Origin: Woeseiaceae bacterium
GTDB lineage: Bacteria; Pseudomonadota; Gammaproteobacteria; Steroidobacterales; Woeseiaceae
NCBI GenBank assembly: GCA_013043165.1
Contig: JABDOQ010000021.1
Location: forward strand, 1-64,000
DNA length: 64,000 nucleotides
Direction: 5' to 3'
Numbering within the stretch: position 1 is the stretch's first letter; every line of letters starts with the position of its first letter. Shown piece after piece: positions 3,927-28,600 of this stretch. The notes beneath the pieces are model-generated. The model saw nothing but the letters and a program-made list of their open reading frames with translations. It was not told where the DNA came from and did not search any database. Both the position numbers and the translations under genes were made by a program.

Positions 3927-4698
3927 GGACCCAATCGTAATCCATGATCAGCGGCGCGTGATCGGAGAAGCGCTGCTCTTTGTAGATATCGGTCCTCAGC
4001 ACCTTGTCCTTCAATCCCGGCGTTACGACCTGGTAATCGATGCGCCATCCTGTGTTGTTATCCCAGGCGCGGCCGCGGTTCGACCACCAGGTGTATTGGT
4101 GCGGCTCCTGCTCGATCGTACGAAACGCGTCCGCGAATCGATGTTCGCCGAACACTGAATCCATCCAGGCGCGTTCTTCGGGCAGGAACCCGGAATTCTT
4201 TCGGTTGGCGCGCCAGTTCTTGAGATCGATCTCCTTGTGAGCGATGTTCCAGTCGCCACAGATTACGTATTCCGAGCGGCGTCGCCGCAGCTTCTTGAGG
4301 TGCTCGGTGAACGTATCCATGCAGCGATACTTGGCCGCCTGCCGTTCCTCGCTCGATGAACCGGATGGCAAGTACAACGATACGACGTTGATGCCCTCGA
4401 GCTGTACCTCGAGGTAGCGACCTTCAGCATCGAACTCCGGGTCGCCGAAACCGCGAACAACTTTCTTCGGCCTGTGTCGGCTGTAAACGGCCGTGCCGCT
4501 GTAGCCCTTCTTGACCGCATCTTCGTAGTAGCAGTGGTAGCCCTCGGGCGAAAAAATATCGTCCGTCAACTGATGAGCCTGCGCCCTGGTTTCCTGGATA
4601 CAGATCACGTCGGCATTCTGCGTCGACATCCATTCGAAAAAACCCTTGCGGGCGGCCGCCCGAATACCGTTGGCATTCAGGCTGATAACGCGAAACAA
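3916..4698 (-). CDS. xth: Exodeoxyribonuclease III / AP endonuclease
   Basis: The 260-residue protein belongs to the exonuclease III family, which cleaves at abasic sites and trims 3' ends in base-excision repair. Visible active-site blocks are [10 protein letters not shown] at the N-terminus (Asn), CIQETRA (metal-binding Glu, about residue 36), the tyrosine segment [25 protein letters not shown] (Asp and Asn) and the C-terminal [10 protein letters not shown] (Asp-His pair). Length is close to E. coli XthA. It is divergent from pyrE with about 59 bases between their starts, and it precedes the AmpG-like gene with an 11-base overlap. Confidence 0.95.
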
Positions 4699-9159: not shown

Positions 9160-9972
9160 ATGCCCGAACTACCTGAAGTCGAAACCAGCCGTCGCGGCAT
9201 CGAGCCGCACATTATCAACACGGCCATCTCGCGCGTTGTGATTCGCGAGCGGAGCCTGCGCTGGCCCGTTACGAAGGAGGTAGACCAAAACCTGCCGGGC
9301 CAGACCGTTACATCGGTGGGTCGCCGCGCAAAATACCTGCTGATCAATACGGAAATCGGCTCGGCCATTTTACATCTCGGCATGTCGGGCAGCGTTTGCA
9401 TCGTCGATCGTGACACACCGGCCAGTGTGCATGACCACGTCGACATCGAGTTTAGCTCGGGACTGATGTTGCGCTACCGCGATCCCCGGCGTTTCGGCTC
9501 CCTCCACTGGAGCAGGAATCCACTGTCGCATCCGCTGCTGAACAAACTCGGGCCGGAGCCGCTCGGCGACGAATTCAATGGCGACTACCTTTGGCAAATA
9601 TCACGGGACCGCAAGGTCAGCATCAAGCAGTTCATCATGAACGCCCACATTGTCGTCGGCGTTGGCAACATCTACGCGAGCGAAGCGCTGTTCGTGGCCG
9701 GCATCAATCCGCGGCGCGCGGCCGGGCGAATCTCGGCGCTTCGTTACGACGCGCTGGCTGATGCAATCAAGGAAGTCCTCAGCAGGGCGATCACGGCCGG
9801 CGGCACGACCTTGCGTGACTTCTACGGTGGCGATGGAGAGGCGGGCTACTTCCAGCAGCAGCTGCAAGCCTACGGCCGCGAAGACGAGCCGTGTCGACGC
9901 TGCAGCACGCCGATTACCGCGATTGTCCAGGGACAGCGCTCAACCTACTACTGCAAGAATTGCCAGACCTAG
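9160..9972 (+). CDS. mutM: Formamidopyrimidine-DNA glycosylase (Fpg/MutM)
   Basis: MutM removes 8-oxoguanine and formamidopyrimidines and nicks the strand by beta/delta elimination. The N-terminal catalytic PELPEVE (Pro after Met removal, Glu next) is intact. Lys in the HLGMSGS region, the GVGNIYASEALF helix-two-turn-helix block and the C-terminal zinc finger (CRRC then CKNC) are all present. At 270 residues it has the usual length. The start lies 18 bases after the rpmG terminator, so it probably has its own promoter or depends on read-through. Confidence 0.97.
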   Translation: MPELPEVETSRRGIEPHIINTAISRVVIRERSLRWPVTKEVDQNLPGQTVTSVGRRAKYLLINTEIGSAILHLGMSGSVCIVDRDTPASVHDHVDIEFSSGLMLRYRDPRRFGSLHWSRNPLSHPLLNKLGPEPLGDEFNGDYLWQISRDRKVSIKQFIMNAHIVVGVGNIYASEALFVAGINPRRAAGRISALRYDALADAIKEVLSRAITAGGTTLRDFYGGDGEAGYFQQQLQAYGREDEPCRRCSTPITAIVQGQRSTYYCKNCQT

Positions 9973-9975
9973 CGC

Positions 9976-10464
9976 TCAGTCGCGCCCACAGCGATCCAGC
10001 AAGGCGTGTTTCACATCCGGCGACACAAACTTGGACACGTCGCCGCCCAGGGAGGCAACCTCGCGAACGAGGCTTGATGAAATGAACGTGTATTTGTCTG
10101 TCGGCGTCAGGAAAACCGTTTCCACTTCTTCTGTCAGGTGACGGTTCATGTTGGCAAGCTGAAACTCATACTCGAAGTCAGAGACAGCTCGCAAACCGCG
10201 GATGATTACGGCAAGGCCATGCTCCCGGGCGAAGTCAACCGTGAGCCCTTCGTAGCCAGTGACCTCGATGTTCTTGATTTTCGACAGCGCTGCCTTGGCC
10301 AGCTCGACGCGCTCGCCGAAGGTAAACATCGGAGCCTTGGAGCCCGGGTGGGCGGCGATAGCGACCACGACCTTATCGTACAGGCGTGCCGCCCTGCGCA
10401 CGAGGTCTTCGTGTCCGAGTGTGATCGGATCAAACGTTCCGGGATACATTGCGGATACTTTCAT
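9976..10464 (-). CDS. coaD: Phosphopantetheine adenylyltransferase
   Basis: CoaD transfers AMP from ATP to 4'-phosphopantetheine, the fourth step of coenzyme A synthesis. The start at 10464 gives [18 protein letters not shown], the ATP-binding block with the T/H-x-G-H nucleotidyltransferase signature. [14 protein letters not shown] and the [14 protein letters not shown] motif near the C-terminus complete the family set. The product has 162 residues, the normal size; an upstream extension to 10512 reads into noncoding-like peptide and was rejected. It follows rsmD by 13 bases, a pairing conserved in many bacteria. Confidence 0.96.
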
Positions 10465-10477
10465 CGAGTGCGTCCTG

Positions 10478-11065
10478 TCATGTCCTTTGCCGAACCAGCA
10501 TATAACGGACACTGCCGGCCGTCTTGTTCTTTAGCACTTCCCAGCCCTCTGGCAAATCGGGCTCCGCCCTGGATCGTTCTTGCTCAATATAAATACAGGC
10601 ATCTTTTGTCAGCAGTTTTCGCTCAGCCAGCAGGCTGCACACTTCCTCGATCATGCCGGCTGCGAATGGCGGGTCCAGGAACACCAGGTCGAATTGTTCG
10701 GTGTTGTCGCCGCGAAGGTAGTTCAGCGCGTCCGTGTGCCGGACGACCGCTCCCGCCGCGCCCAGTGTCCTGATGTTGGCGTTTAGCGTACTGGCGGCCC
10801 GCATCGACTTTTCCACGAAAACGGCACTACCCGCGCCGCGCGACAATGCCTCCAGTCCCAGCGCGCCGGTTCCCGCAAACAGATCCAGGCAATGAGCGCC
10901 GTGGATGCGTGGCTCAAGCCAGTTGAACAATGTCTCGCGAATCCGCGCCGACGTCGGCCGCAGGCCCGCGACATCGGCGATATCCAACAGACGACTGCGC
11001 CAGTTTCCCGCTACAATACGCAGCCTTCCTGGCCGGGCTTTGCTCGTTTTTTGTCGCTTGGCCAT
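10478..11065 (-). CDS. rsmD: 16S rRNA (guanine966-N2)-methyltransferase RsmD
   Basis: The 195-residue enzyme methylates G966 of 16S rRNA in the small subunit. It shows the basic N-terminal entry [13 protein letters not shown], then [16 protein letters not shown], the SAM site [19 protein letters not shown] and the amino-methyltransferase motif FLDPPFA (DPPF). The gene is divergent from ftsY, with 35 bases between start codons, and is transcribed with coaD. Confidence 0.95.
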
Positions 11066-14900: not shown

Positions 14901-15578
14901 CTAGCCGGCGGTTAGCGGCACCATCGTGATTTCAACACGACGATTGGCCTGGCGGCCGTCTGCCGTGTTGTTGTCTGCTACGGGGCGCAGCTCGCCCATA
15001 CCGACCGTGATCAGACGTTGCGGATTTATCCCCTGAGCCTTCAGGTACGTCGAAACCGACCCTGAGCGACGCTCTGACAAACTCTGGTTGTACGACTCGG
15101 ATCCTGTGTTGTCGGTGTGACCCGCAACCTCAACGACGGTCTTGTCGAATTCCTTGAGAACCTTGCCAACCGAATTCAGCACGTCGAAGAACGCCGGGCT
15201 CAAATCCGAGCTGTTGGTTGCGAACGTAACGTTGCCGGGCATATTGAGCGTAATATTATCGCCAATGCGGGTAACGCTGACACCCGTGCCTTCGAGTTCG
15301 GCGCGAAGTTTGGCTTCCTGGCGATCCTGGTAGTTGCCGATAGCACCACCGGCCAACGCGCCAACGCCAGCACCGATCAATGCGCGCTGCCTGCGTTCGA
15401 CCGCGTCATCACCGGAAATGAGGCCAACAACTGCGCCAGCCGCTGCACCAATCAAGGCACCCTTGGTGGCTTTGCTGGTCTTCTCTTCCCGCGTATACGG
15501 GTCCAACGTTTCACAGGCGCTCGCGAAGACGGCAAATACCGTCATTGCGAGGACGATCTTTTGAGACCTGGTAATCAT
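14901..15578 (-). CDS. OmpA-family lipoprotein with glycine zipper
   Basis: The 225-residue product starts with a lipoprotein signal ending FASAC (Cys at residue 22). Next is a glycine-zipper region (GALIGAAAGAVVGLISG and GAGVGALAGGAIGNY), then an OmpA-C peptidoglycan-binding domain with VEVAGHTDNTGSESYN and LSERRSGSVSTYLKAQG. The layout matches YiaD-type outer-membrane lipoproteins that link the outer membrane to peptidoglycan. It is a single gene ended by its own terminator and convergent with rpoH. Confidence 0.9.
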   Translation of the reverse strand: MITRSQKIVLAMTVFAVFASACETLDPYTREEKTSKATKGALIGAAAGAVVGLISGDDAVERRQRALIGAGVGALAGGAIGNYQDRQEAKLRAELEGTGVSVTRIGDNITLNMPGNVTFATNSSDLSPAFFDVLNSVGKVLKEFDKTVVEVAGHTDNTGSESYNQSLSERRSGSVSTYLKAQGINPQRLITVGMGELRPVADNNTADGRQANRRVEITMVPLTAG

Positions 15579-21430: not shown

Positions 21431-21969
21431 GCTGGAAGAAGATGTCATCGCGCACAGTTTACGAAAATGGCTGGATGGAGGTTCGCGAGGATCATGTCAT
21501 CAACCCGGGTGGAGGCCAGAACAACTACGGTTACGTACATTTCAAGAACGTGGCGGTCGCGATTATCGCGCTCGATGAGGCCGACAATACCTGGCTTGTC
21601 GGACAGAACAGGTACACGCTTGGCGAGTATTCGTGGGAGCTGCCGATGGGGGGCGCACCGCTTGACGAGCTACCGCTGACAGCCGCGAAACGTGAGCTCA
21701 AGGAGGAAACCGGCATTCGGGCGTCGCACTGGCAACAGCTCATGCGTCTGCACACCAGCAATTCGATCACCGATGAACTCGGCTTCGCTTACGTTGCCAC
21801 GGGCCTTTCATTTGGCGAAACGAACTTCGAGGAGACCGAAGACCTCGAGATTCGCAGGCTGCCGCTGGAAGACGCCGTGCAAATGGTGTTAGACGGCCAG
21901 ATCACCGACGCGATCTCTGCTGCCGCGCTGCTCTGCATACGCGCTGTCAAAAAAGCATCTGCGCCGTAA
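21427..21969 (+). CDS. NUDIX hydrolase, ADP-ribose pyrophosphatase-like
   Basis: The 180-residue protein carries a complete NUDIX box: GGAPLDE, seven residues, then RELKEETGI, matching G-x5-E-x7-R-E-U-x-x-E-E-x-G-U. The N-terminal part (SSRTVYENGWMEVREDHV) is like the ADP-ribose/GDP-mannose pyrophosphatase branch, which clears nucleotide sugars. Substrate is not shown by sequence. Start overlaps the SRPBCC stop; its own stop overlaps the convergent sortase stop by 23 bases. Confidence 0.9.
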   Translation: MSWKKMSSRTVYENGWMEVREDHVINPGGGQNNYGYVHFKNVAVAIIALDEADNTWLVGQNRYTLGEYSWELPMGGAPLDELPLTAAKRELKEETGIRASHWQQLMRLHTSNSITDELGFAYVATGLSFGETNFEETEDLEIRRLPLEDAVQMVLDGQITDAISAAALLCIRAVKKASAP

Positions 21970-22528
21970 CGATGTAGCGCAGCGGGCCGCCTGCGTCGCG
22001 CGCCTCGAATGGATAGCAGGTCACGAGCGTCAGCATAGACGTATCGGTGTCCAGCACCAGGCCGCCTTTACGCGAATCGACAACATTTGCTCCAATCACT
22101 TTGTAAACGTGCTTCTGGCCCCTGGCCGACTCGATGCTGAGCAGCTCGCCTTTCTCGATGCCCCTCAGAAACTTGAAGTGCGTGTCCCGATGACCCGCGA
22201 TAACGGTATTCCCGACCTCACCGGGCATTGCACTCGCGCTGAGATGCCCGGGCCCGAATGCCAGGGTTCGACCAGACCCGCCTGCAAGGACAATCAGGTC
22301 GACCTCGCGCGACGTTGAACGCAAGCGCCCGATTGGCCAGGTATCGGCCCACGGCCATGGGGCCGGACGCTCGATGTCTCTTGCGGCACGCAGCCAGGCC
22401 CTTTGCATGAGCTCCTGGGCCAGCCAGGCCTTGGCAGGAATGTATGCGCCCGTTCCCAGTTGCCAAAAGCCGAGACAAAGCAGGCAAGCCACGAGCCAGC
22501 GCCCTGCGAGACTATATCGCGTGAACAC
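21947..22528 (-). CDS. Class GN sortase (dedicated marine proteobacterial sortase)
   Basis: This 193-residue transpeptidase has an N-terminal membrane helix (residues 8-28) and a sortase domain. The catalytic set is present: His113 in TVIAGHRDTHF, Cys171 in TLVTCYPF and Arg184 in GPLRYIV. The TLVTCYPF form and the pairing with the VIT/VWA protein identify the Gram-negative dedicated sortase. It would join the target's C-terminal signal to an unknown acceptor at the inner membrane/periplasm. The GTG at 22528 starts inside the last 17 bases of the target gene; a longer frame to 22591 would lie further inside that gene and reads as non-protein. Confidence 0.92.
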   Translation of the reverse strand: MFTRYSLAGRWLVACLLCLGFWQLGTGAYIPAKAWLAQELMQRAWLRAARDIERPAPWPWADTWPIGRLRSTSREVDLIVLAGGSGRTLAFGPGHLSASAMPGEVGNTVIAGHRDTHFKFLRGIEKGELLSIESARGQKHVYKVIGANVVDSRKGGLVLDTDTSMLTLVTCYPFEARDAGGPLRYIVTAQMLF

Positions 22529-24575
22529 GATGCGTGCGCCGGCCGACCTGCAGCGCAGTAAACAGCAGCAAGGCCAGGAGTACACAGGCAATTCCGGTCA
22601 TGCGCAGCATCGGTGCATTGGTTGCTGTCGCAGGGAAACCGAATATTGCATTCATGCTCTGGCCATACGGCATCAGGTTCGGCACCTGTTCGCTCGACAA
22701 TGGATCACCGCCCGGACGCACCGGTGTTTTGTCGACGGCAACCAGGCTCGTGTATTTGCTGACCAGGTGGTGAGCGAGCGCCGTCTCTACGATTGCTGCG
22801 CGTAGTCCGGCGGCGCTTCCGCTTCGCCTTTCTTTCTCCATGAGTTCAGCGATCCTGGCTCGCGCCCAGAGCGCTCCAATGCCCTCGCTTTTTTCCGGTG
22901 ACTGCAGTGACAGGTTCTTCGACCAGCCACCCGTGACAAAATTGCCGCTGATGCTGACAGTGTCGCCGGCCCGAAACTCGCCGGAAGCCCTGATCTTTAC
23001 GGTGACGGGCTCACCAAGATAGAGGTCCGGAATCGTTTGCGGATAGCTGTCGATTGCGACACCGCTGGGCCATTGAACGTCGATATCGGTGACCTGCGGA
23101 TGCTCGAGCTTGCGGAACAACGCATTCATTTTGTCGCGCACCTCGTGCAGGGCGCTTATAAACGTGTAGGATCCCCGGCCCGCCTCCGCCGCCCTGCGCA
23201 TGAACCAGCTGTTCGGGGCTGAACCGATGCCGACCGTAAACAGGCGCGCGTTGCCGAGTTTGTCTTCGATCATCGAGAACATCTCGTCCTCGTAAGCAAC
23301 GCTGCCGTCGGTGATAAAAACTACCTGGCGCAAGTGTGTTTCCTCAGCCCTGCTGCTCAGCGCCATGTCCAGCGCCGGGCGCATCTCGGTGCCACCGTTG
23401 GCCCGCAATTGCTTGACGAAATTCAGTGCATCGGCAATGTTCGATGGGTTTGCCGCAACGCTGGCCCGGTGCAGGGCGTTCGTCGACGAGTTGAATTCGA
23501 TGACGTTGAAACGATCGCCTGCGTGCAGGCTTTTCAAAGCAAGATGCACGGCCCGCTTCGCTTCTGCGATAGACACACCGTGCATGGAGCCCGACGTATC
23601 GATGATCAGGATCATCTCGCGAGGCATCAGAGCGGCTGGCGCCTCATTCTGATCCGGCGGCATGACCATCAGCAGGTGGTGTGGTTGGTCCTCGATCGTT
23701 TCTGAGAAAAGCATTGCCCTCGGCGCTGCCGCTGGCACAGGCTGCCAGTCCAGCTCGAAGTCGTGGTCCATGGCGACCTGCCCGGCGCTGAGCGTCACGC
23801 GGTAGCGACCGTTGTCTTCAGCGACGCTGACCGGATGATAGCGGCTCACGACAGTCGCCAGCGGCACGCCCGCATTGACGTTGGCTGTCAGCGTCATTTT
23901 GTGGCCACGTGACCCCGCAACCATGGGCGGCGTGACAAGCGAGGCGTCCGGCACTCGGTCAGTATCGCGCGACCAGCCGTTGCCGACCTTGTCTGCCAGC
24001 GGCTGCCCGCTGATATAGCGGGGCGTCAGGGTCATCGGGAATCGAATGCTGAAGCGGCCATTTTCATAGCGAATGTCTTCCAGGTATTCGATTTCGACGA
24101 CCACGCGTTCGCCTGGCGCGACATTTGCCACTGACGTTGTAAACAAATTGGGTCGCTGTTGCTGCACGAGGCTGGCTTTTTTGCCGGCCTGCTTTGCTTG
24201 TTCATAGGTTTTCTCGGCATGTTGCTTCTCCTGAACATCGCCCTCGATAAAACGGTCGCCGATATGCAGCCGCATACGGTCGACCGCGGCGTTTTCCGAA
24301 AGCGGGAAAACGTAAATACCCTCGACCCACTCGGAGCCTTCGTTGTGAAATTCCTGCCGTACAGAGACGCGTGCGACGAGCCCGCTGATTTGCATGTCGA
24401 CGTCAGTGTTCAACAGCATTGCTGTCGTATAGCCCTGCTGCATTTGCCACAGCAGGCTGCCGGACCGCGCCTGATCGGGCATCGGCTCGCTCGCACATGC
24501 CAGGACCGGCCCGATCAACAGCAGCAAGACCAGGCGCGCCTTCCATGCGTGGATTTTGGTTTTGCTTCGTTTCAT
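22512..24575 (-). CDS. Dedicated sortase target: VIT and VWA domain protein with sorting signal
   Basis: The 687-residue product has a signal peptide (about residues 1-29), a VIT domain (about 45-180; SVRQEFHNEGSEWVEGIYVF) and a VWA domain from about 318. The VWA domain has an intact MIDAS start DTSGS (326-330), so it can bind a metal ion and a partner protein. The C-terminus holds a sorting signal: FPATATN at 647-653, a hydrophobic helix, then the basic tail GRRTHR. This is the usual substrate layout for the adjacent sortase, with F in place of the more common L. The role of the displayed VWA protein is unknown; it may mediate adhesion or complex assembly. Confidence 0.93.
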   Translation of the reverse strand: MKRSKTKIHAWKARLVLLLLIGPVLACASEPMPDQARSGSLLWQMQQGYTTAMLLNTDVDMQISGLVARVSVRQEFHNEGSEWVEGIYVFPLSENAAVDRMRLHIGDRFIEGDVQEKQHAEKTYEQAKQAGKKASLVQQQRPNLFTTSVANVAPGERVVVEIEYLEDIRYENGRFSIRFPMTLTPRYISGQPLADKVGNGWSRDTDRVPDASLVTPPMVAGSRGHKMTLTANVNAGVPLATVVSRYHPVSVAEDNGRYRVTLSAGQVAMDHDFELDWQPVPAAAPRAMLFSETIEDQPHHLLMVMPPDQNEAPAALMPREMILIIDTSGSMHGVSIAEAKRAVHLALKSLHAGDRFNVIEFNSSTNALHRASVAANPSNIADALNFVKQLRANGGTEMRPALDMALSSRAEETHLRQVVFITDGSVAYEDEMFSMIEDKLGNARLFTVGIGSAPNSWFMRRAAEAGRGSYTFISALHEVRDKMNALFRKLEHPQVTDIDVQWPSGVAIDSYPQTIPDLYLGEPVTVKIRASGEFRAGDTVSISGNFVTGGWSKNLSLQSPEKSEGIGALWARARIAELMEKERRSGSAAGLRAAIVETALAHHLVSKYTSLVAVDKTPVRPGGDPLSSEQVPNLMPYGQSMNAIFGFPATATNAPMLRMTGIACVLLALLLFTALQVGRRTHRVHAI

Positions 24576-24718
24576 TGCGGCCTCCCTTTGGCGTCCTCAC
24601 TATTGCAACCCCCCAAAACGCCGGTCTGCCGACAACGACATGGCAATGCACCGGCGTAATGTGGCAAATTGTGGCCACCAGTACTTCGCGAGGGCGGAGT
24701 GCGAAGCAGGAGGCCCAT

Positions 24719-25411
24719 GTGGCGAAACGGATAGCAATCGTTGAAGACGAGGCGGCGATTCGGGACAACTACGCGGCGGCGTTCCGCCGTGAAGGCTATG
24801 TCGTCGATGCTTTCGAGGCGCGGGCACCGGCCCTGAACGCATTTGAGAGTCGGCTGCCGGATCTGGTCGTCATCGACATCAACCTCAAAGACGATGTCGA
24901 GGGCGGCTTCGAGCTGTGTCGTGAACTTCGGGCGCGCGCGGCGGAATTACCTATCATCTTCCTGACGGCCCGCGACAGCGAGTTCGACGCCGTATCGGGG
25001 CTGCGGCTTGGCGCCGACGATTACCTGACCAAAGACATAAGCCTGCCGCATCTGATGGCTCGCATCGCGGCCCTGTTCCGGCGGCTTGACGCTCTGCAGA
25101 AGCCGCAGGGCGCTGCAAGCCGCATCACACGCGGGGACCTCGTCATTGATACGGAGCGCATGACGATACACTGGCAAGAACAGCCCGTTGGCCTGACGCT
25201 TACGGAATTCTGGCTCGTACATGCGCTCGCTCGATTCCCGGGCCACGTCAAGAACCGGCAGCAGTTGATGGATGCCGCGCAAGCCGTGCTCGACGACAAT
25301 ACGATTACCTCACATGTGAAACGTATCCGTCGAAAGTTCCTGAACATCGACGCCGGCTTTGACGCTATCGAAACAGTTTACGGTATGGGCTACCGCTGGC
25401 TGTCTGACTAG
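24719..25411 (+). CDS. Response regulator of the dedicated sortase system
   Basis: The 230-residue protein has a receiver domain with the acidic pair in IVEDEAA, phosphoacceptor Asp53 (VVIDINLKD) and Lys in DDYLTKDISLP. It is followed by a winged-helix DNA-binding domain (VGLTLTEFWLVHALARFPG, TSHVKRIRRKFL, YGMGYRW). It is an OmpR/PhoB-type regulator. The GTG start is fixed by AGGAGG at 24708-24713, five bases ahead. It is divergent from the sortase target, with 143 bases between them, so it is well placed to control both directions. The kinase gene follows after 13 bases. Confidence 0.93.
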   Translation: MAKRIAIVEDEAAIRDNYAAAFRREGYVVDAFEARAPALNAFESRLPDLVVIDINLKDDVEGGFELCRELRARAAELPIIFLTARDSEFDAVSGLRLGADDYLTKDISLPHLMARIAALFRRLDALQKPQGAASRITRGDLVIDTERMTIHWQEQPVGLTLTEFWLVHALARFPGHVKNRQQLMDAAQAVLDDNTITSHVKRIRRKFLNIDAGFDAIETVYGMGYRWLSD

Positions 25412-25424
25412 CCAGCGCCGGGCG

Positions 25425-27455
25425 ATGAATCTAAGGCGCCAACTGCTACTTGTCAGCCTTCTGACGCTGATGCTCCCCTGGGCCGGGTGTGAGTTCATTC
25501 GTGAAACGGAGTCCGCGCTGCGAACAGGGCAACAGCAAATGCTGGCGGCGACGGCCCGTGCGCTTGCCAACTCCATGGCGCAATACCGTGAAGAATTCCC
25601 GCGGCAGGATGCCGCGCTCGCTACGGATGACCAGCTGTACATACACGAACTCGAGATGCGGCCGGAGATTGACGGCTATTTCGACGATTGGCCGCTGCGC
25701 CCAGATTCGCTCGAGTCCATGCGCGGCGTCGATGGCCCCGTGCTTTTTTCCTTTGGCTCGTTCGGTCAAACGATCTATTTTTATGTCGAAGTCAGCGACC
25801 GCAATGTCATCTATACGACACCACAGTCTCTGGTCCTTGATGATGAGTCACGCCAGGCCGATCGCGTCACGCTGATCAGCAGCAACCCGCCCTACCTTCA
25901 GGAGACGATCGCTTTCGCCGCGGAAGCGCCCGGCAAGATTCTCAGCTATAAACAGGACGCGTACGGCATTGCTTTGGAACCCACAATCACGGCGCACTGG
26001 CAGGATATTCCAGGCGGATACCGGCTGGAATCGGGCATTCCTGCAGCACTCCTGGGAACGCATTTGGGCATCGTCGTCAACAACACCGACGATGCGGCCC
26101 GCCCAGGCACGCGCAGCAGCAGCTTTTCGGGGCTCGCACCGGGTCCAACGGCGCGTATATCGCCTGACGTCAACGCGATCGCCGCCAGGCTCGTGCAGCC
26201 GGGCATGCGGCTCATCGTTACCGACACCAGCGGCTGGCGGATCGCAGCCGCGGGTGAATTAAGCGCTGACACTGCCGCCAATACACGCCCTGGCTTTGCC
26301 CGTCGCCTCTACGACCTGCTGGTTGAGTCCGGAAAAGAGGCTGTTTTCGCAGAACCCGACCCGCTCGGACGAGAGCAGCAAAGCTATGTTGCCGCGGCGC
26401 TACAGGGCCGCGAAATGGCAAGCTGGTTTCGCAGCGACAAGAGTGGCAAGGCCATCGTCGCGGTTGCGGCCCCAATCAGGTCGGGTAGCGACACGCTGGG
26501 CGCCGTCATATTGCAACAGGACACCGACGCCATACTCAGTCTGACGAACGAGGGGCTTGCTCGCCTTATCAACGTCACTTTGATCGCAACGTTGCTGGTG
26601 GCCGGCACGCTACTGGGATACGCCACCTGGCTGTCACGCCGCATTCGTCACCTGTCCGTCGCGGCCGAAGCAGCCCTCGAGAACGAGGCGCTGCAATCGT
26701 CTTTGCCCAGTGCGCTTGCGAGCGATGAAATCGGTGATCTCTCTCGCAGTTTCTCAAGCGTTTTGAAACAGCTCGGCGACTACAACGAGTACCTCAAATC
26801 GCTGGCATCGAAACTCTCGCATGAACTGCGTACTCCTCTGGCTATCGTCACCTCGTCGCTCGAAAACCTCGAACACGAACCGCTCAACGAGGCCGGCATG
26901 GGTTACACGGCACGCGCAAGAGATGGCGCCGACCGCCTGCGGAGGATCCTGAGCGCCATGAGCGAAGCCAACCGAGTCGAAGAATTGATGGCCAATGTAG
27001 AACCTGAAATGTTCGATTTTCGTAAAGCCCTCGACTCGACTGTCACTGCTTATCGTGATGTTTACAGGGAGAGATCATTCGAAATCGACTGTGATCTGAC
27101 AAACCTGAACACGACCGGATCGCCGGAATTGCTTATCCAGATGCTCGATAAGCTGGTTGACAATGCAGTTGACTTTAGTAACAAGGGCGACACGATTACA
27201 ATTCGACTGCTTGCACGGCACGACGAACTCGAATTGTCTGTCATAAACCCGGGGCCCCCATTGCCGGAGCGCATGCGCACGCAGATGTTCGATTCGATGG
27301 TTTCCATGCGTTCAGGTGACAATACACGTCACCTTGGTCTGGGCCTGTATGTTGCCCGCCTGATCGCCGTCGGGCATGGTGGCAGCATCGACGCCGACAA
27401 CGTCGACGGAGGCGTCATGTTCCGGGTGGTGTTGCCAACGATGACGAGCGGCTAA
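25425..27455 (+). CDS. Sensor histidine kinase of the dedicated sortase system
   Basis: The 676-residue kinase starts MNLRRQLLLVSLLTLMLPWA then GCEFIRETE, a start typical of the sortase-linked kinases. A periplasmic sensor of about 350 residues follows; residues 78-240 (EIDGYFDDWP, YFYVEVSD, DDESRQADRV) resemble a CBM9-like carbohydrate-binding fold. A second membrane helix near residue 400 leads to a HAMP-like segment, the H-box LSHELRTPLAIV, an N-box DKLVDNAVDFSNKGD and the G-box HLGLGLYVARL. It presumably phosphorylates the upstream regulator. The sensor's resemblance to CBM9 is by pattern only. Confidence 0.92.
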   Translation: MNLRRQLLLVSLLTLMLPWAGCEFIRETESALRTGQQQMLAATARALANSMAQYREEFPRQDAALATDDQLYIHELEMRPEIDGYFDDWPLRPDSLESMRGVDGPVLFSFGSFGQTIYFYVEVSDRNVIYTTPQSLVLDDESRQADRVTLISSNPPYLQETIAFAAEAPGKILSYKQDAYGIALEPTITAHWQDIPGGYRLESGIPAALLGTHLGIVVNNTDDAARPGTRSSSFSGLAPGPTARISPDVNAIAARLVQPGMRLIVTDTSGWRIAAAGELSADTAANTRPGFARRLYDLLVESGKEAVFAEPDPLGREQQSYVAAALQGREMASWFRSDKSGKAIVAVAAPIRSGSDTLGAVILQQDTDAILSLTNEGLARLINVTLIATLLVAGTLLGYATWLSRRIRHLSVAAEAALENEALQSSLPSALASDEIGDLSRSFSSVLKQLGDYNEYLKSLASKLSHELRTPLAIVTSSLENLEHEPLNEAGMGYTARARDGADRLRRILSAMSEANRVEELMANVEPEMFDFRKALDSTVTAYRDVYRERSFEIDCDLTNLNTTGSPELLIQMLDKLVDNAVDFSNKGDTITIRLLARHDELELSVINPGPPLPERMRTQMFDSMVSMRSGDNTRHLGLGLYVARLIAVGHGGSIDADNVDGGVMFRVVLPTMTSG

Positions 27456-27467
27456 AGAGGTAGAGAC

Positions 27468-28565
27468 ATGGCGAAACGACATTGCTCCACGTTCGGTCTT
27501 GCGTTACTCATATTGAGCGGACTTTTTTCCGCACCTGCAGTTGCAGAGCTGCGGCCGATCAAAGCATGGCAGTGCACCATAGCGGCGCCAGACGCCGAGG
27601 CAAAGACTGAGAGCCCGCGTGACAGGAAAATTACACTGTATGAATACCGGTCGCCCGACAATTGTCTGGATGAGGCGCTGCCACCGGTCGGCAGCTACGT
27701 TTGCCGCGCGGACTATACGAAAGACGGGGCCACCGAGACGCTGTGGCGCGCCAGGAACAACCGCGATTACTGTCGTCCCCGTACCGAGGCTCTCGTACAA
27801 GACCTTGATAAAGCGGGTTTTTTCTGTACGGCTCTTGAGGTCGAAGGGTGTGACGAGCCGGCGCACGTCGCAGGCGACGCTGGCCCCGCAGCCGATGTCC
27901 TGACATTACCCGATACTGAGCCCAATCACGATGTTCAGTCCGTATACGAAGCCGAACCCCTGCAGACTCCGGAACCCGTTGCGGGCACACACAGTATCAA
28001 GACGCCGACTGCAGGCACGGCCGGAAACGTGCCGCCAGTTGACAAGACGGCGAGCCGCGAAGAGCAGTTAGCCACGTTTTTTAACGGCTTGTTCGACGCC
28101 CCGTTGGCGATGGCCATGACATATGCCGCTATTCCCGACAACTTTACTGTGTATGACGACAGTACGCTGTCAGCCGCTAACGGTGAGACGCTTCGTTTTA
28201 CGCGAGGTACTCATGCCTGGGAAACACGCAGAGATGAAGGAGTTCTGGTTATCAACGCTGACTTTCATCACGGAACTTCGTTCAATGATGTTTTTTTCGG
28301 CTTTACATTCGACAGAAGTCGTTCGACAAATGAACCGGATCGTCATCAATTCCGATACCTCGGCGTTGTGAGTCCGGAGACCGAGAGCGAAGTAATCTAT
28401 GCGAGTGAGGACAAGATCATCATCTCGTCCAAATGGTATACCGGGTCCAGCGACTGTAGTTCGTCCCGAACCACGGACGAATATCGATGGTCGGACTCAA
28501 TCTACGGCACGCTGCAAATGCGTACGATCAGCGTGATGGATAATGCGGATTGCGCCGGCGAATAG
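27468..28565 (+). CDS. Unrecognised secreted cysteine-rich protein next to the sortase kinase
   Basis: The 365-residue product starts 12 bases after the kinase with a good ribosome binding site (AGAGGT), so it is probably in the same transcript. It has a signal peptide (ending PAVAE near residue 27). Its N-terminal region, about residues 28-130, holds many cysteines (AWQCTI, PDNCLDE, SYVCRAD, RDYCRPR, FFCTALEVEGCDEP), likely paired. Next comes a Pro/Thr/Ala-rich linker (about 135-195) and a C-terminal domain (about 198-365) with few hydrophobic runs and Cys near the end. I do not recognise either domain and see no sorting signal. Base composition turns A/T-richer towards its 3' end. Possible role: periplasmic partner of the sortase system. 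Confidence 0.7.
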   Translation: MAKRHCSTFGLALLILSGLFSAPAVAELRPIKAWQCTIAAPDAEAKTESPRDRKITLYEYRSPDNCLDEALPPVGSYVCRADYTKDGATETLWRARNNRDYCRPRTEALVQDLDKAGFFCTALEVEGCDEPAHVAGDAGPAADVLTLPDTEPNHDVQSVYEAEPLQTPEPVAGTHSIKTPTAGTAGNVPPVDKTASREEQLATFFNGLFDAPLAMAMTYAAIPDNFTVYDDSTLSAANGETLRFTRGTHAWETRRDEGVLVINADFHHGTSFNDVFFGFTFDRSRSTNEPDRHQFRYLGVVSPETESEVIYASEDKIIISSKWYTGSSDCSSSRTTDEYRWSDSIYGTLQMRTISVMDNADCAGE

Positions 28566-28600
28566 AATTCGAGAGGCGCCAACGACAATCAAAAACCAGC

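Follow-up and report, generated by a model that had tools for sequence, protein, structure and literature searches.

Genes and features of the locus

The window analysed here is a stretch of 64,000 nucleotides (positions 1-64,000 of contig JABDOQ010000021.1, forward strand) from Woeseiaceae bacterium GCA_013043165.1, a 3.19 Mb draft genome in 113 contigs that is 98% complete. It carries a class GN sortase cassette, in which a sortase and its target are divergent to a response regulator (PdsR) and a histidine kinase, and a conserved 37-bp element, our candidate PdsR box, lies between the two pairs. An earlier note on this DNA had placed a dedicated sortase locus at 21947-28565. The four cassette genes of that span hold, but the open reading frame (ORF) at its right edge, 27468-28565, is not part of the cassette, and a further member, the OmpA-family protein PdsO, is encoded on another contig. 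The features are as follows.

21947..22528, minus strand: class GN sortase, 193 residues, GTG start at 22528, stop codon ending at 21947
22512..24575, minus strand: sortase target, 687 residues, with VIT domain, VWA domain, intact metal ion-dependent adhesion site (MIDAS) and C-terminal sorting signal
22617..22637, minus strand: sorting motif FPATATN of the target, residues 647-653, with a hydrophobic helix and then a basic, Arg-rich tail downstream
24639..24675, minus strand: 37-bp conserved element, candidate PdsR box, GCCACAATTTGCCACATTACGCCGGTGCATTGCCATG, between target and regulator
24719..25411, plus strand: response regulator PdsR, GTG start, receiver PF00072 and OmpR-type winged helix PF00486
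25425..27455, plus strand: histidine kinase, PdsS type, periplasmic-type sensor between two predicted helices, HisKA PF00512 and HATPase PF02518
25503..26558, plus strand: predicted WalK-like Cache fold of the kinase, split by CBM9, residues ~27-68 and ~246-378
25629..26159, plus strand: predicted CBM9-like sensor domain of the kinase, residues 69-245, AlphaFold2 model

Family calls were made with NCBIfam profiles and NCBI curated cut-offs, plus Pfam. The sortase matches the class GN profile TIGR03784 at 212.3 bits (cut-off 158.25, E 3.6e-63), in agreement with the class first assigned to it, and also matches PF04203. The catalytic residues H113, C171 and R184, as numbered in the earlier note, are exact with the GTG start at 22528 and correspond to H109, C167 and R180 of a 189-residue query; H and C are present in 80/81 aligned sequences and R in 81/81. 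The GTG start lies inside the target gene with an overlap of 17 nt, and the two genes, being overlapping, are probably co-translated. A target gene that directly adjoins its sortase in this way is the dedicated arrangement expected of class GN, and the sortase would act on this target as a transpeptidase.

The target, read earlier as a VIT/VWA protein with a C-terminal sorting signal, bears this out: it scores 762 bits against TIGR03788 (cut-off 552, E 3.9e-229), begins with a signal peptide assigned by eye and ends with FPATATN, a hydrophobic stretch and an Arg-rich end. Its MIDAS residues (D-x-S-x-S, T, D) are invariant in all 73 aligned targets. Within the same alignment the first motif position is F in 50, L in 19 and Y in 4; the fourth is T in 67 and G in 6, and the sixth is T in 69. 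The Phe remarked upon earlier in place of Leu is thus present, but it is ordinary in the family and no oddity. A structural model of the target (mean predicted local distance difference test score, pLDDT, 85) has inter-alpha-inhibitor heavy chain 1 (6fpy) as its best structural match, with a Foldseek E of 5.7e-37 and a TM-score of 0.58 by target length.

The earlier note had suggested that a lone target in the genome would support a one-substrate sortase, and the genome indeed has a single PF04203 match and a single TIGR03788 match. PxTATN matches its DNA eight times, and only the match in the target lies in a long frame, near the C-terminus and before a hydrophobic stretch. The other seven fall in short stop-to-stop frames (45-118 codons) in which inspection by eye showed no tail of the sorting type; this search covered PxTATN only and no general LPxTG-type profile. 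As judged by PF04203, TIGR03788 and PxTATN, the draft genome has one sortase with one substrate.

Two variations were seen among the targets of relatives. By eye, Gly replaces Thr at the presumed cut in 8/114 targets (L044, L065, L076, L081, L083, L085, L086, L128), in motifs such as LPQGATD, YPAGATP, FPAGATK and similar, with the following AT kept in 6/8 and loci of several taxonomic labels represented; either their sortases take Gly or they cut elsewhere. This by-eye reading was used in place of an automatic count of the residue preceding the presumed cut in the 114 targets, which mispicked several tails. In a Woeseiaceae metagenome-assembled genome (MAG; L064, JANQLK010000022.1, ~9897-10555), the element, regulator, kinase and sortase are present, but the stretch from element to sortase has no target gene.

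The regulator scores 382 bits against the PdsR profile TIGR03787 (cut-off 336, E 1.1e-114). As for the divergent regulator and kinase described earlier, both genes are there, but the kinase stays under its family cut-off although the match is full length. We therefore call it PdsS-type by position and do not file it as a PdsS member.

A conserved element between target and regulator

In an intergenic alignment of 49 sequences (the window and 48 relatives), 28 of the 37 columns of the element are at least 90% conserved. The same level is reached by 0/43 columns of the flank on the regulator side, where 23 columns are an insertion that most relatives lack, and by 10/63 on the target side. The element contains direct repeats about one helical turn apart, GCCAC at 1 and 11 and GCCAT at 32; the repeat expected at ~21 is weak, and the first repeat is weak in several distant loci. 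Repeats of this spacing suit regulators of the OmpR/PhoB type. The element lies 63 nt before the start codon of the target. Among the open-access papers brought up by literature searches, none names a regulator site of the dedicated sortase system in its title or at the start of its abstract.

A weight matrix of the element was trained on 21 sequences, 15 from loci that were also scored and 6 of Woeseiaceae type. The window's own element reaches 66 bits; the next-best score anywhere in the 64 kb is 75 bits lower, with none above -9. For the wider comparison, a contig search confirmed 553 stretches with a sortase, of which the best 80 loci were kept; 37 more loci brought the set to 117, and the 10 lacking a usable upstream region or target were set aside, leaving 107 scored loci. 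Where PdsR is linked, 65 of 70 loci have a site of at least 18 bits anywhere in the locus; where it is not, 5 of 37 do. In 62 of the 65 loci the site is no more than 300 nt away from the matched start of the regulator, and in the other 3 it comes shortly ahead of that of the target. The five sites without a linked PdsR (L116, L118, L119, L124 and L134) belong to genomes G122, G288, G318, G186 and G007, each of which has an unlinked PdsR over the cut-off.

This association is partly circular, as 15 of the 21 matrix sequences come from scored loci. When a locus was scored with its own site left out, 24-40 bits were kept by L064, L065, L074, L076, L081-L083, L099-L101, L109, L118, L119, L124, L125, L127 and L134, and 18-21 bits by L067, L085, L116 and L132; L087 dropped to 11. 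Among loci without a linked PdsR, five non-gammaproteobacterial genomes were checked for an unlinked PdsR over the cut-off and none was found; Nitrospira was not looked at.

A sequence-only model of the element, R1, was built from 39 elements and has rough E-values. It was run at E 0.01 on 398 Pseudomonadota genomes, our own included, the same set (by the handles shown) as was scanned with TIGR03784. It matched 19 genomes, 13/37 with a sortase and 6/361 without. The 13 sortase-positive matches are largely circular, and R1 matched no sortase genome outside the window's class, of which there are 19. In three of the sortase-negative genomes (G348, G282 and G162), which have no TIGR03784 match at E 1e-15, the element lies near a PdsR and kinase with PdsO, as found with our own profiles (the PdsO-like match of G162 is weak, 40 bits). 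The remaining three (G072, G036 and G180) have no PdsR or PdsO within the 7-8 kb fetched, and we take their sites as chance, near the ~3.6 expected. Judged by these matches, the element accompanies PdsR and PdsO more than it does the sortase.

Second sites precede PdsO

Running R1 with stricter filters on 107 genomes of the window's family gave matches in 94 at E 0.05, of which 65 have at least two sites. Among the matches listed, 56 second sites were fetched; two proved to be target sites (L206, L237), leaving 54 non-target sites. Of these, 51 precede a PdsO-type OmpA protein, which is secreted, ~240 residues long, and has an OmpA domain as well as a glycine zipper; in three of the 51 (L167, L205, L238) the gene is cut off by the contig end. 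The R1 training set holds no pdsO site of the window's family. The best NCBIfam family of one such protein (L168) is PdsO, TIGR03789, at 117.7 bits (cut-off 152.2). Distances from element to start codon are mostly 71-152 nt for pdsO.

The association was also read in the reverse direction. A protein profile by itself identified PdsO in 17 of 30 genomes. Within the 300 bp upstream of the gene, a site reaches 20 bits or more in 16 of the 17, the remaining one having 12 bits (L216). Each of the 17 upstream sites exceeds all of its 300 mononucleotide shuffles. Leaving out six training sites (four in the matrix, two more in R1), 10/11 reach 20 bits. In eight genomes (G385, G330, G267, G368, G362, G007, G318 and G234) a site lies between divergent pdsO and pdsR, reading towards pdsO; in G122 the site is followed by pdsO and then by regulator and kinase; and in several same-class genomes (L099-L101, L109, L125, L127) pdsO stands between target and regulator.

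The genome of the window also has a second R1 site, at C109:180-206 (18.8 bits, E 0.006). On the same strand, 90 nt past it, starts an ORF whose beginning reads as a signal peptide and which runs into the contig end. A relative's PdsO matches C109:5-124 with 63% identity over its residues 3-42 (40 residues, of which the first few belong to the upstream frame of the query; E 1.6e-6). No protein of the genome matches TIGR03789 over 152.2 bits, which may be an assembly effect because the start of the gene runs into the contig end. A repeated element near C109 may be the reason for the break. Beside the truncated pdsO, 160 nt from the element, lies an ORF that reads as transposase-like (G000:C109:366-1706).

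A predicted CBM9-type sensor in the kinase

The kinase sensor was modelled with AlphaFold2 (397 residues, 46-sequence alignment, mean pLDDT 85). The best solved matches of the model are CBM9 modules: 7nwn aligns to residues 69-245 with a VIA-align Z of 15.4 (root-mean-square deviation, rmsd, 2.7; 158 aligned) and a Foldseek E of 3.7e-5. The rest of the model resembles the extracellular domain of Staphylococcus aureus WalK (4ywz; Z 12.3, rmsd 3.0, 133 aligned, range 27-378). The sensor is thus predicted to be a CBM9 fold inserted into a WalK-like Cache domain. By sequence, a profile of the sensor alignment finds the same CBM9 weakly (E 0.02), and one of four kinases tested, that of the distant relative L087, passes the Pfam cut-off of CBM9_1 (PF06452).

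Distribution and known systems

The dedicated sortase system with its adjacent target was noted in 2011 (PMC3237569), and the part of a 2023 paper that was consulted describes the role of sortases in Gram-negative bacteria as unknown (PMC10581121). The rarity that the earlier note had ascribed to them in Gram-negative bacteria is overstated. They are not very rare: TIGR03784 matches 37/398 Pseudomonadota genomes, 33 of them over the cut-off, and the family also occurs in Nitrospira. Among the best 80 of the 553 sortase loci, many are labelled Woeseiaceae and some Nitrospira, with up to 90% identity to the window, and the cassette is conserved in relatives' loci. The Nitrospira-labelled loci L066, L068-L073, L077, L078 and L088 are target-sortase pairs with motifs of LP[RK]T type and no two-component system or element in the locus. 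One MAG (CALDZH01) has two sortase loci, L040 and L043, and G474 has two target-type element sites; these duplicates are either second copies or mixed bins.

All five families of the proteobacterial dedicated sortase system (TIGR03784, TIGR03788, TIGR03787, TIGR03785 and TIGR03789) are present or traceable here, and the adjacent target and sortase and divergent regulator-kinase pair are those of that system. The locus differs in having pdsO on another contig, in the motif FPATATN, and in a kinase and relatives' PdsO that score below the cut-offs. The next-best subfamily for the sortase is class D with LPXTATN substrates (Bacillus; NF058671), at 80 bits, below the class D cut-offs of 165 and 140. 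In the parts of the Bacillus cellulosilyticus study consulted, the extended TAT motif is common to that organism and the window's target, but 27 LPXTA proteins are counted in the body text (23 in the abstract) against one substrate here (PMC3617157); unlike that of Bacillus hosts of class D sortases, the envelope here is Gram-negative. The WalK/YycG wall-sensing kinases of Firmicutes share the predicted Cache fold of the sensor, and the WalK profile matches the kinase half, but the window's kinase has the CBM9 insertion and reaches 88 bits against a WalK cut-off of 725. The target shares VIT and VWA architecture and overall fold with the vertebrate inter-alpha-inhibitor heavy chains (6fpy, 628 alignment columns) at only 16% identity. 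The attachment of heavy chains to glycosaminoglycan uses a different chemistry and no sortase.

Neighbouring features of the window

27468-28565: ORF directly after the kinase, 365 residues, outside the cassette

This ORF has no Pfam or NCBIfam match, and a homologue was found in 1/80 relatives' loci (the close relative L011, 64%), some loci ending early on that side; for lack of a family match and of homologues other than that of L011 it was left out of the cassette. Among the ORF clusters listed for the 80 loci and the window, none apart from the cassette genes was seen to keep a constant position across close and distant loci alike. ORFs were taken from stop to stop for this clustering, and clusters are therefore inflated by overlapping false ORFs; annotation of the clusters is partial, and the clustering preceded the fetching of loci with pdsO beside the target. 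An OmpA-domain gene at 14901-15578, considered as PdsO (82 bits, C-terminal part), was rejected as a YiaD lipoprotein (NF053611, 265 bits vs cut-off 175). This glycine-zipper/OmpA lipoprotein gene adjoins genes that read as rpoH-like and ftsEX-like. No structured RNA was found in 22000-28600 above the Rfam threshold.

Proposed working and alternatives

We consider it likely that the locus is a one-substrate class GN cassette coupled in expression, via the shared element, to a wall-binding OmpA-family PdsO encoded elsewhere. The PdsS-type kinase would read an envelope signal, perhaps a glycan, through the CBM9 set in its WalK-like Cache domain, and would phosphorylate PdsR. We infer that PdsR, by binding the tandem repeats of the intergenic element, switches on target and sortase, and that it acts at the second site to switch on pdsO, so that one box would control all three. 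The target would be exported and then retained by its C-terminal helix, where the sortase would cut it at FPAT|ATN by way of Cys171. Through the Thr of FPAT the target would pass to a periplasmic amine acceptor, which would anchor the VIT/VWA protein in the envelope. PdsO would sit alongside it and, by its OmpA domain, is expected to bind peptidoglycan. Our first guess at the acceptor is the peptidoglycan stem peptide, and our second is PdsO.

Several observations weigh against this proposal. The kinase reaches only 513.7 bits against TIGR03785 (cut-off 612.2, E 7.7e-154) in spite of a match over 1-703 of 703 positions, and Pfam gives no significant match for its sensor. A site of 18 bits is lacking in five of the loci whose PdsR is linked (L080, L087, L105, L111, L112). 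In the seven genomes examined whose PdsR is unlinked to the target (G007, G288, G186, G122, G318, G234 and G015), a site is missing at the target in G234 and G015 and at the regulator in G186 and G015, and G288 has only a weak site (12 bits) at pdsO/pdsR. Three of the 54 fetched second sites (L198, L204, L241) are not at an intact PdsO, and seven PdsO proteins of the family score 110-136 bits, under the TIGR03789 cut-off. At E 1e-30, PdsO was missing from 7 of the 17 same-class sortase genomes examined outside the window's family (G186, G122, G015, G070, G138, G174 and G154, of which G122 has PdsO on our own profile) and from G424 within it. PdsO is therefore not essential to the system. Nor do the aligned PdsO proteins have a conserved lysine near the N-terminus able to serve as acceptor; such a lysine had been considered and was dropped as a claim for want of conservation. 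Separately, at L204 (~4000-4400) a PdsO-like start (ASREENIGVGS) stops after a few codons.

The locus could instead be an ordinary member of its family and nothing else, the element being a conserved core promoter or the site of another regulator, and the link to PdsO a matter of shared envelope control. Its distances from the start codons of target and pdsO are promoter-like, and PdsR is proposed to bind it on the strength of sequence comparison. A plain promoter, however, would not be so restricted among the 361 sortase-negative genomes, where half of the six matches lie near PdsR and the other half are about the chance number; the element is absent from 32/37 usable loci that have no linked PdsR, including those of Nitrospira (whose genomes were not searched for an unlinked one), and the repeat spacing fits what is known of the OmpR/PhoB family. 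We regard this explanation as unlikely. That the sortase is mainly a protease, freeing the target from the inner membrane into the periplasm or medium without attachment to an acceptor, seems to us rather doubtful. No established sortase acceptor of the Gram-negative periplasm is known to us, sortases are known to hydrolyse their substrates as a side reaction, and the listed ORF clusters have no further gene at a fixed place by the cassette; yet the catalytic triad and motif match transpeptidase sortases, and co-occurrence with a protein that has a peptidoglycan-binding-type domain suits attachment better.

PdsO itself might be the acceptor, its amine being joined to the target's Thr by the sortase, and both the element common to target and pdsO and the loci with pdsO between target and regulator would agree with this. 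We think it quite improbable: other same-class genomes do not share the N-terminal lysine (SKEE) seen in Woeseiaceae PdsO, and several sortase genomes have no PdsO that was found. A broader view, offered as speculation that is probably wrong in part or whole, is that PdsS-PdsR is a Gram-negative counterpart of WalK-WalR that reads envelope glycans by CBM9, with PdsO as its core output and the sortase and VIT/VWA protein as an added second output. With PdsO as core output, it would make sense that sortase-negative genomes retain PdsO along with PdsR and the element. Were it true, a heavy-chain-like VIT/VWA protein would covalently reinforce or decorate the envelope under the same signal.

The locus is a true member of the described system and ordinary in its parts; what is added here, by computation, is the shared element and the predicted sensor. 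The shared element would name a co-regulated set, consisting of target, sortase, PdsO and probably the regulator itself. The predicted glycan-type sensor suggests signals to try, and with these the purpose of the system would become testable.

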